Origin: a virus
Reading direction: 5' to 3' (one strand)
IMG/VR virus record: IMGVR_UViG_3300008459_000077
Span: 1 to 48,481 of that record
DNA length: 48,481 nucleotides
The notes below the pieces were generated by a model. That model was not told the DNA's origin. It ran no database searches and was given only the letters and a program-made list of their open reading frames with translations. Of the stretch, positions 45,734-48,429 are shown piece by piece. The position numbers and the translations under genes were made by a program. Positions within the stretch are counted from its first letter, which is position 1, and every line of letters begins with the position of its first letter.

Positions 45734-45799
45734 AATGTTTCGTTATTTATCGTGTGGTAATAAATAGTCTATGGTACACGAAAAGTGTAAAAAAAAGTG

Positions 45800-46179
45800 T
45801 GGAGCCGGAGGGATTCGAACCCTCGTCTTGCTCAGACATTAATAAAAAACTCATTCACAGGTTTAGTTAGTTTTTTCTGAACTAAACAAACATACCTAAT
45901 TTGTAGGTCTACTCAATATAGGTAACTGTAGGCAATTGTAAAGGACAATTTGCAAACCTCACTATGTGCTCACCTCTGTTCCTAGGTCAGGAGCTACCCC
46001 GTTTGATTAGGCTGCTACAGCGTAATCAGCACCGACGAACGCCATAGCGTCTTCGAAGGTGAAAGAAGATTTCTCTTCGCCATTTAATTGTTTACATAGG
46101 TTATTAAAGAGTTTCCAATGTTAACTCTACCTGCATCATTTCAAACAACGTACTGCCAATCGATACCAATGTCGACCCC
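45800..46179 (-). ncRNA. ssrA: tmRNA (transfer-messenger RNA)
   Basis: The 3' end has a tRNA-Ala-like half: a T-arm (GAGGGTTCGAATCCCTC) followed by CGGCTCCA. The 5' end reads GGGGTCG and pairs with CGGCTCC to make a 7-bp acceptor stem (one G-U and one U-G pair). CCA is not encoded. A tag reading frame lies at 46007-46081: it starts GEEKSSFTFEDA, ends GADYAVAA and stops with TAA, 24 residues in all. The stop is followed by GC-rich pseudoknot-like pairing (GCTC/GAGC and ACCT/AGGT). tmRNA rescues stalled ribosomes and tags the peptide for proteolysis. The GEE start and the (D/N)YA(V/L)AA end fit Bacteroidetes-type tags, but this tag is longer than the 9-residue tags I know from that phylum. Confidence 0.93.
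46007..46081 (-). other. tmRNA tag-peptide reading frame
   Basis: Resume codon GGC at 46081-46079, TAA at 46009-46007, 24 sense codons. The C-terminal AVAA resembles the LAA/VAA protease-recognition end of ssrA tags. The frame choice is fixed by the Ala-rich end immediately before TAA. Exact resume codon is inferred. Confidence 0.8.
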
Positions 46180-46215
46180 AATATTGTAGTAAGTAATAGT
46201 TCTTTAAACTATTTT

Positions 46216-46536
46216 TTAATCGTTAATAATTTGTTTTTTGGCACTATTGCCTATAAATTTGTTTTCCATTTTGTCGAACCGCGAATCAACATAACTGTTG
46301 AGTGCATCGACTCGATGATTGATTTCTTTACGATCATTTTCAATCGTACGACAGAGGTCTGCATCCAAATTTGTAATGCGACTATGTAGGTCACGCGTAT
46401 CTGCGCTCAGCCAACGTTCTATAGTATTTATTTTGTCTTGCATTTTAAAGACCTTTAGCATACCCATAACAACAATAACGATTGCAGCAATCGCTATCAC
46501 TGAAAGCATACCATAAGCAAATGATAATGTTTCCAT
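46216..46536 (-). CDS. Membrane-anchored coiled-coil protein (106 aa)
   Basis: An N-terminal transmembrane helix (about residues 8-28, GMLSVIAIAAIVIVVMGMLK) and a long helical, charged C-terminal part (TIERWLSADTRDLHSRITNL and onward, with DRKEINHRVDALNSYVDSR) that looks like a coiled coil. Layout resembles the nearby holin and spanin candidates. It lies between the tRNA and the tmRNA. The function is unknown; another spanin-like or membrane regulator role is possible. Confidence 0.7.
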   Translation of the reverse strand: METLSFAYGMLSVIAIAAIVIVVMGMLKVFKMQDKINTIERWLSADTRDLHSRITNLDADLCRTIENDRKEINHRVDALNSYVDSRFDKMENKFIGNSAKKQIIND

Positions 46537-46577
46537 AATTTTATCTCCTATATGTCAAAGAACTATTACTTACTTAG

Positions 46578-46649
46578 TTGCGGAGGGCGGAATCGAACCA
46601 CCGACCTACAGGTTATGAGCCTGCCGAGCTACCTCTGCTCTACTCCGCG
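46578..46649 (-). tRNA. Initiator-type tRNA-Met (CAU)
   Basis: A complete cloverleaf of 72 nt without encoded CCA. The anticodon loop is CTCATAA (anticodon CAU). Position 1 C faces A72 (no Watson-Crick pair), as in bacterial initiators; the D-stem is GAGC/GCTC with A11-U24, also an initiator trait. The anticodon stem GCAGG/CCTGT has only two of the three G-C pairs of classical initiators (A29-U41). TATTTATA (46668-46675) lies 18 nt upstream, inside the preceding gene. The 5' 44 nt overlap the 3' end of the small membrane-protein gene. Confidence 0.92.
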
Positions 46650-46907: not shown

Positions 46908-47828
46908 CTATTCAGTTATAACGTATTTACCTTCTTCTGTAACAGTTATGTAATAGTTAGGCAACACCTTTACTACTCTACTAGTAGGGTTAGCGGTTGG
47001 TAGCTTGACTTTTACATTGCATGGGGTACCCCAACAAAAAGTTTGTCCATTTATAATAACACGGGAACGAACAGAATATACTTCACCTGGAATTAAAAGG
47101 CTCGCTGGTGTTTTTCTAGATCCTATTGGTGGGAAATATGTGATAACATTGGCTGGGTTAGAAACTTGAGTAAATTCCATTTCATACTGAGTAACATACA
47201 AATAATCTAGTACTAAACCGGCTGGAATAGAATCATTTGGGTTTATGTTCATCTTACCACAGTAAAATTGTCCAACACCATTAGGTGATCTAACTCCACG
47301 CAACACAATTGTGTCAGATGTTACTGAGCATCCATACACATTAGCCGTATACCAAACCCGCGCTGTATCTAATTGAGGACTTGTATAGGTCGAGTCCATA
47401 ATTCTATCAAATGTTGAGCCAACTGAACCATCACTCCATAAATAATTAACGTACCCAGGATCCGCTTCTAGTATAACATTATCAAATCTACATACCCAAG
47501 GTCCTTTAACTACAGTGATTGTCGGGCTGGAAGGGACTTTATAATATTTAGTAAAGGTATAGCTTCTAACAAAAAAGCTACGACCCATGTATCCAGTAAC
47601 GGTTAATGAATAAGTTCCTGATTGAGTAATTGAAATGGTAGGCGTAGTTTCGCCCGTGCTCCATTGATATACTAATGGGTAAAAGCTTTGACCGGCAATC
47701 CAAATACTTAGATCAGTACCTGAGCAGATTGTATCTTGATCGGGAACTAAACGAACATTGTTTTGTGCATACAACCCTGTAACACATAGTAGACTAATAA
47801 GCAATAATGTAACTTTATGCTTTAACAT
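46908..47828 (-). CDS. Secreted Ig/PKD-like protein of Bacteroidetes style (306 aa)
   Basis: A clear signal peptide (residues 1-21, TLLLISLLCVTGLYAQ) is followed by two Ig/PKD-like modules: about 26-80 (YQWSTGETTPTISITQSGTY) and about 106-178 (VILEADPGYVNYLWSDGSVG, GCSVTSDTIVLRG). This pattern (WS-G, I-I-V-SGTY, GC---D-I-V) is typical of Bacteroidetes cell-surface and gliding-type proteins. The remainder is beta-rich. No phage structural role is needed for a secreted protein, so it may act on the infected cell surface, for instance against superinfection. It overlaps the end of the endolysin gene by 14 nt. Confidence 0.75.
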   Translation of the reverse strand: MLKHKVTLLLISLLCVTGLYAQNNVRLVPDQDTICSGTDLSIWIAGQSFYPLVYQWSTGETTPTISITQSGTYSLTVTGYMGRSFFVRSYTFTKYYKVPSSPTITVVKGPWVCRFDNVILEADPGYVNYLWSDGSVGSTFDRIMDSTYTSPQLDTARVWYTANVYGCSVTSDTIVLRGVRSPNGVGQFYCGKMNINPNDSIPAGLVLDYLYVTQYEMEFTQVSNPANVITYFPPIGSRKTPASLLIPGEVYSVRSRVIINGQTFCWGTPCNVKVKLPTANPTSRVVKVLPNYYITVTEEGKYVITE

Positions 47829-48429
47829 ATGAATAATATTTATTTGTTTTTGATTTTCTATCTTCTAATCCATGGGTTCCACCATTGATTCTTTTTGTTA
47901 ATTCTAATATAACTGTATCATTTACTCCTTTATCACAAATGCTCCAAAGCTTATTCTTATCGAAGAAGAACATTGCAGATTCAAAAGCGTAGGTTGTTGC
48001 GACTAGGTCAGGATTAGTCATTATTTCAGGCTTTTTCAAGTAATCTGCGAAAGCTTGGTAGTTTGACTTGCCTGTTAACTGCAGAGCACCTCTACCCCTA
48101 TATTTCCAACCATCGCCTGATGCTTCACTACCATTACCCATCCTATCAGCATACACACGATTAGCTATTTTCTCTGGGTTACGAGCGTAAGATTCCTCTA
48201 ATGTACCTGGAAAATACTTACCAAAGATATTTTGCAATCCTTGCGCTGAGTAGTTTAAGTTCTCTGTAAAGATTGTAAATCCACCTGACTCGTGTGATGT
48301 TTGAGCAAAGAAGTGAGCTGCTCTTTCCGGAGTTAGTTTGTAGTAAGCCATTGCTGCTTTCATAGTTCCAGGTCCAAAAGCACCATCTGCTGTTAGACCT
48401 AGTTTAGTTTGCAAACTCTTTAAGCTCAT
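47815..48429 (-). CDS. GH19 endolysin (chitinase-like muramidase) with short N-terminal wall-binding repeat (204 aa)
   Basis: Residues about 1-30 (SLQTKLGLTADGAFGPGT) are a truncated peptidoglycan-binding_1-type repeat. Residues about 35-204 are a glycoside hydrolase family 19 domain: FAQTSHESGGF with catalytic Glu47, Glu56 as candidate second acid, WKYRGRGALQLTG (108-120) and ITKRINGG-type element LTKRINGGTHG near the end. Phage GH19 enzymes cut the glycan strands of peptidoglycan. It has no signal peptide and would depend on a holin. It leads the visible lysis region. The ATG follows the upstream stop by one base. Confidence 0.93.
   Translation of the reverse strand: MSLKSLQTKLGLTADGAFGPGTMKAAMAYYKLTPERAAHFFAQTSHESGGFTIFTENLNYSAQGLQNIFGKYFPGTLEESYARNPEKIANRVYADRMGNGSEASGDGWKYRGRGALQLTGKSNYQAFADYLKKPEIMTNPDLVATTYAFESAMFFFDKNKLWSICDKGVNDTVILELTKRINGGTHGLEDRKSKTNKYYSYVKA

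Follow-up and report, generated by a model that had tools for sequence, protein, structure and literature searches.

A phage-encoded tmRNA whose long tag belongs to a large family of phage tags

tmRNAs are already known from mycobacteriophages and other phages (PMC4131195), and 402 of 18,146 phages were found to carry one (PMC9004378). The commonest tag length in the newest tmRNA database is 10 (PMC11915505). The tmRNAs of Bacteroidota hosts (GENNYALAA, DNNYSYRLAA and ANDYSYAMAA types) resemble the phage RNAs described here in being one-piece, in their RF00023 architecture and in a C-terminal YA[L/M]AA, and some of their tags begin GE, but they are 8-10 aa long in 68 of 69 genomes compared with 23-26 aa in the phages, and the phage RNAs group apart. 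The tmRNAs of the crAss-like phages cr272_1, cr273_1 and cr114_1, gut phages that are generally assigned to Bacteroidota hosts, are also phage-encoded, but ARAGORN calls them permuted, with tags of 13-15 aa and of another sequence. Cellulophaga phages phi38:1, phi40:1 and Calle_1-3 are Bacteroidota phages that do have a one-piece tmRNA with a long tag, here called family B; its sequence is a different one, with the end VGV and not VAA, and the Calle phages are podoviral, not T4-like (PMC8776804). Bacillus phage G and Stenotrophomonas phage Marzo are large phages with a tmRNA and tRNAs, but their tags are unrelated and only 13-14 aa long by ARAGORN. The ssrA tag of Mesoplasma florum is longer than usual, but it is bacterial, ends NYAFA, is read by Lon and is unrelated in sequence (PMC9382460). 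Our search of the open-access literature, with subscription journals outside it, found no description of phage tmRNA tag families. Phage tmRNA itself is known, and the part that looks new is the tag: large families of long, conserved, phage-only tags.

The tmRNA gene and its genomic setting

The DNA analyzed (the window) comprises all 48,481 bases of one IMG/VR virus record; it has no end repeats and is probably a fragment. Judged by its protein matches, it comes from a T4-like myophage whose structural genes are colinear with those of Flavobacterium phage immuto (T4-like Immutovirus relatives). About 18 of its proteins have immuto counterparts (26-77% identity), many of them in stretches where gene order is the same; among them are the baseplate wedge protein, primase and endolysin. 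Gp23, the T4-like capsid protein of immuto, was not found in the window fragment, and no tmRNA was found in the immuto genome. Shine-Dalgarno-like motifs were present at only 4 of 48 window starts, and few such motifs are usual in Bacteroidota. This scarcity, together with the immuto matches, makes a Bacteroidota host likely.

ARAGORN and Rfam agree on a complete tmRNA gene on the minus strand, as proposed by the initial annotation, which had named a covariance search as the check. The Rfam match (RF00023, gathering score 47) takes in the full model (1-374) at 45797-46179, with 80.9 bits and an E-value of 6.1e-30; the RNA ends pair in the acceptor stem and the T-arm is intact. RF00023 also matches 20 of 20 tested relatives of this tmRNA. 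The parts of the gene, all on the minus strand, are as follows.

45799-46179, minus strand: one-piece tmRNA (ssrA) gene (ARAGORN; Rfam RF00023)
46173-46179, minus strand: 5' strand of the acceptor stem, in which position 46177 is the G3 that pairs with U70 (the G3:U70 alanine identity pair)
45801-45807, minus strand: 3' strand of the acceptor stem, with the discriminator A at 45800
45808-45824, minus strand: T-arm (5-bp stem, TTCGAAT loop), 100% paired, with at most four pair types per position
46094-46127, minus strand: pseudoknot 1, GAGTT/AACTC and ACATTGG/CCTATGT with one mismatch, from sequence inspection of the window only (the family alignment is poor there)
46085-46086, minus strand: frame-setting U (-5) and A (-4), which correspond to U85 and A86 of E. 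coli; the resume codon GGC follows at 46081-46079
46007-46081, minus strand: tag reading frame GEEKSSFTFEDAMAFVGADYAVAA and TAA stop (ARAGORN, family conservation, pN/pS 0.30)
46005-46027, minus strand: helix H5, at the tag end and across the stop codon, 99.2% paired

The tag frame has 24 codons and a stop: GGC GAA GAG AAA TCT TCT TTC ACC TTC GAA GAC GCT ATG GCG TTC GTC GGT GCT GAT TAC GCT GTA GCA GCC TAA. From end to end, the 7-bp acceptor stem reads G1:C, G2:C, G3:U, G4:C, U5:G, C6:G and G7:C; G3:U is found in 55 of 55 relatives, and every acceptor pair is preserved. CCA is unencoded in the window, where CAC stands instead, so a host enzyme would need to add it. The resume signal is just as regular among relatives, with A at -4 in 51 of 51 and U at -5 in 50 of 51; ARAGORN's choice of start may favor conservation at these two positions, and the A column is also invariant in a free alignment. 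In E. coli, A86, which occupies the same place as the phage -4 A, is essential (PMC2481249). Pseudoknot 1 is visible in the window, while the region of pseudoknots 2-4 aligns poorly to the model and is highly variable among relatives. Folding the window RNA as a single sequence was uninformative (z -1.9), and a sigma-70 scan upstream of the tmRNA gave no more matches than chance. Three neighboring genes are relevant to the setting.

47815-48429, minus strand: GH19-type endolysin, 77% identical to that of Flavobacterium phage immuto
43053-43523, minus strand: M15-peptidase endolysin
46577-46649, minus strand: tRNA-Met(CAT) showing initiator features such as a CUCAUAA loop below two G:C pairs; it lies 398 nt from the tmRNA, on its upstream side

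The initial annotation had placed the gene in a lysis region, which is fair but loose, the two endolysins being about 1.6 and 2.3 kb off with small membrane-type ORFs between. It had also called phage tmRNAs uncommon, a relative term given that about 2.3% of sequenced phages carry one (PMC9004378). At least 80 viral contigs, mostly unlike the window in the rest of their genes, carry the GH19 endolysin at more than 80% identity, which suggests that this gene is widely exchanged. The tRNA-Met has the C1xA72 mismatch, and its anticodon stem has two G:C pairs and one A:U, compared with three G:C in the bacterial initiator criterion. Of 86 loci, 21 have a tRNA-Met with C1xA72 less than 2 kb from the long-tag tmRNA. 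Often the tRNA follows the tmRNA after only 5-7 nt, whereas the window has it on the upstream side. Between tmRNA and tRNA is a small ORF (46216-46536) flanked by a 25-nt imperfect inverted repeat (88%; 46188-46212 and 46550-46574).

Two families of long phage tags

Beyond what the initial annotation could see, the window tag is one member of a large family (family A). The family pattern is [A/D/G]xELS[T/S][M/F/W]TF[E/D]DAMAFVGADYAVAA, 23-26 residues long and present in more than 120 IMG/VR contigs; the window tag, SSFTFEDAMAFVGADYAVAA, fits the core defined here as S[ST]x[TNS]F[ED]DxM..F[VI]GADYA[VLI]AA. A first scan of IMG/VR, for DYAVAA followed by a stop, returned at least 120 loci. Among the matches listed, ARAGORN called 86 tmRNAs around the motif (window included), and at about 26 further loci the tag was cut off or the gene uncalled. 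A second scan that left the final residues free yielded 109 matches, every one with the same core and conservative ends. The C-terminal variants are DYAVAA (90), DYALAA (11), EYAVAA (4), DYAIAA (2) and DFAVAA (2), and tag lengths are 24 residues in 59, 23 in 32, 25 in 11 and 26 in 9. When the tag was compared with named phages by tblastn, family A gave no match.

The T4 capsid gene Gp23 was detected in 16 of 42 family A records, and long tRNA arrays occur in many records, many of them T4-like. A linked partner gene was sought at 55 tmRNA loci and none was found, no single flanking gene being present at more than 14 of the 55. A search of 47 phage records for SmpB found none, and the same search found SmpB in 10 of 14 control genomes; the phage records are fragments, in which SmpB or an adaptor could be missed. 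Phage ClpP was seen in 2 of 27 records and is not general. The records of loci L149 and L134 (G017 and G035) carry phage ClpP-like proteases, two of them in one record. Three phage contigs have a GOLLD RNA (RF02032, 292-306 bits) close to the long-tag tmRNA, inside the tRNA array or next to it; for mycobacteria, GOLLD, tmRNA and tRNAs are reportedly treated together (PMC6582537).

L084, 4293-4702, minus strand: GOLLD RNA
L087, 2810-3221, minus strand: GOLLD RNA
L092, 9321-9735, plus strand: GOLLD RNA

Family B was met at two loci that have the window's endolysin gene and tags of the form [A/D]NAQIEANMNKVFSL[I/L][G/R]EEVAVAA. The tag of the Cellulophaga phage Calle_1 tmRNA is NAQIEANMEAVNAILNLEVAVGV, and is identical in phi38:1 and phi40:1, in both of which the tag region is annotated as a hypothetical protein.

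Calle_1 MT732432.1, 43053-43127: family B tag region, end EVAVGV, without the usual AA degron
phi38:1 NC_021796.1, 26987-27061: family B tag region, end EVAVGV, without the usual AA degron

A family B scan gave 55 stretches, all with NAQIEANM, a segment demanded by the search pattern. It is mostly followed by NKVFSLL, and the ends vary (EEVAVAA, NEVLAAA, NEDVILGVAA, LEVAVGV), so the internal segment appears to be held more tightly than the end that a protease would read. There is little silent variation in the conserved segment, which may be under RNA constraint.

A 33-base pattern for F[V/I]xxDYAVAA-stop was used to look for a host source of the tag. Genomes of 84,980 bacterial and archaeal species, 257 billion bases in all, did not contain it, and 116 fetched viral loci did; being stringent, the pattern excludes this tag from the genomes searched but not every long tag. 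In an evenly drawn sample of Bacteroidota, 189 of 198 genomes had a tmRNA, and in the 69 genomes where the tag was read, the single call longer than 8-10 residues looks like a misread. A tree built on the tRNA-like ends only, with the tag left out, split 55 phage from 83 host RNAs by one branch (support 88). With its few columns, the tree is moderate evidence that the phage tmRNAs form one group apart from those of Bacteroidota hosts even without the tag.

Covariation and selection in the tag and RNA

The acceptor stem, T-stem and helix H2 show 100% pairing across 55 non-redundant relatives, and for 10 of their 18 pairs both bases have changed in at least one relative. The acceptor, T-arm and H2 together hold 155 double-changed cells, a count reached in 0 of 500 shuffles. 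One pair in H5 joins the third bases of two Ala codons and is UA in 37 relatives and AU in 18, so both the pair and the amino acids are kept.

In an RNA that otherwise changes fast, conservation is highest in the tag core, with a mean pairwise identity of 0.81 compared with 0.53-0.72 elsewhere. Over its 20 codons pN/pS is 0.30 (codon bootstrap 0.15-0.49, related sequences inflating selection statistics of this kind), and 0.35 without DYAVAA. The two wrong frames over the same core gave 1.26 and 1.56, and pS in the tag is 0.39, silent sites varying freely outside the H5 part. Since the ratio is low in the tag frame and above 1 in the others, the conserved thing is the peptide, which by these ratios is under purifying selection. 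The initial annotation had recognized an unusually long tag, borne out by its 24 residues against 8-10 in sampled Bacteroidota, and had suspected that the extra residues matter, a suspicion now backed by purifying selection and by their absence from hosts.

Proposed function and alternatives

We think it probable that the gene specifies a functional phage tmRNA for host-charged ribosome rescue, its tag combining a ClpXP-type end with an internal element selected by the phage. Host AlaRS would charge the RNA with alanine via G3:U70, and host EF-Tu and SmpB would carry it into ribosomes stalled on truncated mRNAs; with no SmpB in the 47 phage records, borrowing that of the host is the most economical arrangement. 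Translation would restart four bases past the conserved A, appending A-GEEKSSFTFEDAMAFVGADYAVAA, and the ribosome would be released with its protein product tagged. The YA[V/L]AA end most likely keeps recognition by ClpXP. The extra 14-15 conserved residues (S[T/S]xTFEDAMxFVG) would be a further element under phage selection, whose most likely role is that of a spacer or of a recognition segment giving better capture by a host protease or redirection to one. The data show the anatomy of the RNA, its covariation and conservation, and selection on the peptide; we infer expression, the use of host SmpB, the protease and the benefit to the phage. The tag conservation suggests that rescued proteins receive a message of the phage's own. 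The initial annotation's further ideas, a change of protease and a role late in infection while the host collapses, would be speculative. A stronger form of our reading is possible but tentative: at least two families of long ssrA tags would have arisen in Bacteroidota phages themselves, their signal being the internal segment and not the C-terminal degron, and this segment would send proteins to a protease, adaptor or location other than that to which the host tag leads.

Large tRNA arrays, often with an initiator tRNA beside the tmRNA, fit a general replacement of the translation apparatus, and phage tRNAs are reported to protect against defenses that target tRNAs (PMC10264068). The gene could then be an ordinary host-derived tmRNA that replaces a host tmRNA destroyed or limiting in infection, with a drifted tag of neutral length. 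We regard this as doubtful, since drift would not keep one long core, common to all the phage tags, absent from hosts and with a pN/pS of 0.30, although replacement may be one benefit of a phage tmRNA. That the tag is conserved for RNA structure or message placement and not as a peptide is distinctly improbable: H5 does take in the tag end, where some codons are fixed (GAT, TAC, GTA), and the first codons of family B vary little even at silent sites, but silent sites elsewhere are free, the two other frames exceed 1, and the covarying H5 pair retains Ala on both sides.

The long tag might instead hand proteins to a protease other than ClpXP, for instance Lon, which reads the longer tag of Mesoplasma florum (PMC9382460); this would suit both the aromatic and hydrophobic tag core and the variable or absent AA end of family B (NLEVAVGV in Calle and phi38:1). 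Such a switch nevertheless appears unlikely, because family A retains a ClpX-like YA[V/L/I]AA end and the change in Mollicutes came with the absence of ClpXP, which Bacteroidota probably have. A role as a decoy or inhibitor of host trans-translation has been proposed for the tag-less RNA of mycobacteriophage DS6A (PMC11915505, PMC4131195). For the present RNA it is highly implausible, since message, resume signal and stop are all intact here and selection acts on them.

The preferred reading, a rescue tmRNA with a phage-selected tag element, bears on the question of why phages encode a tmRNA at all. Phage phi38:1 is cultured, and its infection of Cellulophaga baltica has reportedly been followed by mass spectrometry (PMC13288928), so the presence of family B in this phage makes the long-tag idea testable on existing kinds of data. 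A tag that is conserved across many phages, unlike sampled host tags and selected as a peptide suggests that the phage has a stake in what becomes of tagged proteins, and not in ribosome release alone. If the internal segment is indeed the signal, the phage would be rewriting the outcome of ribosome rescue.
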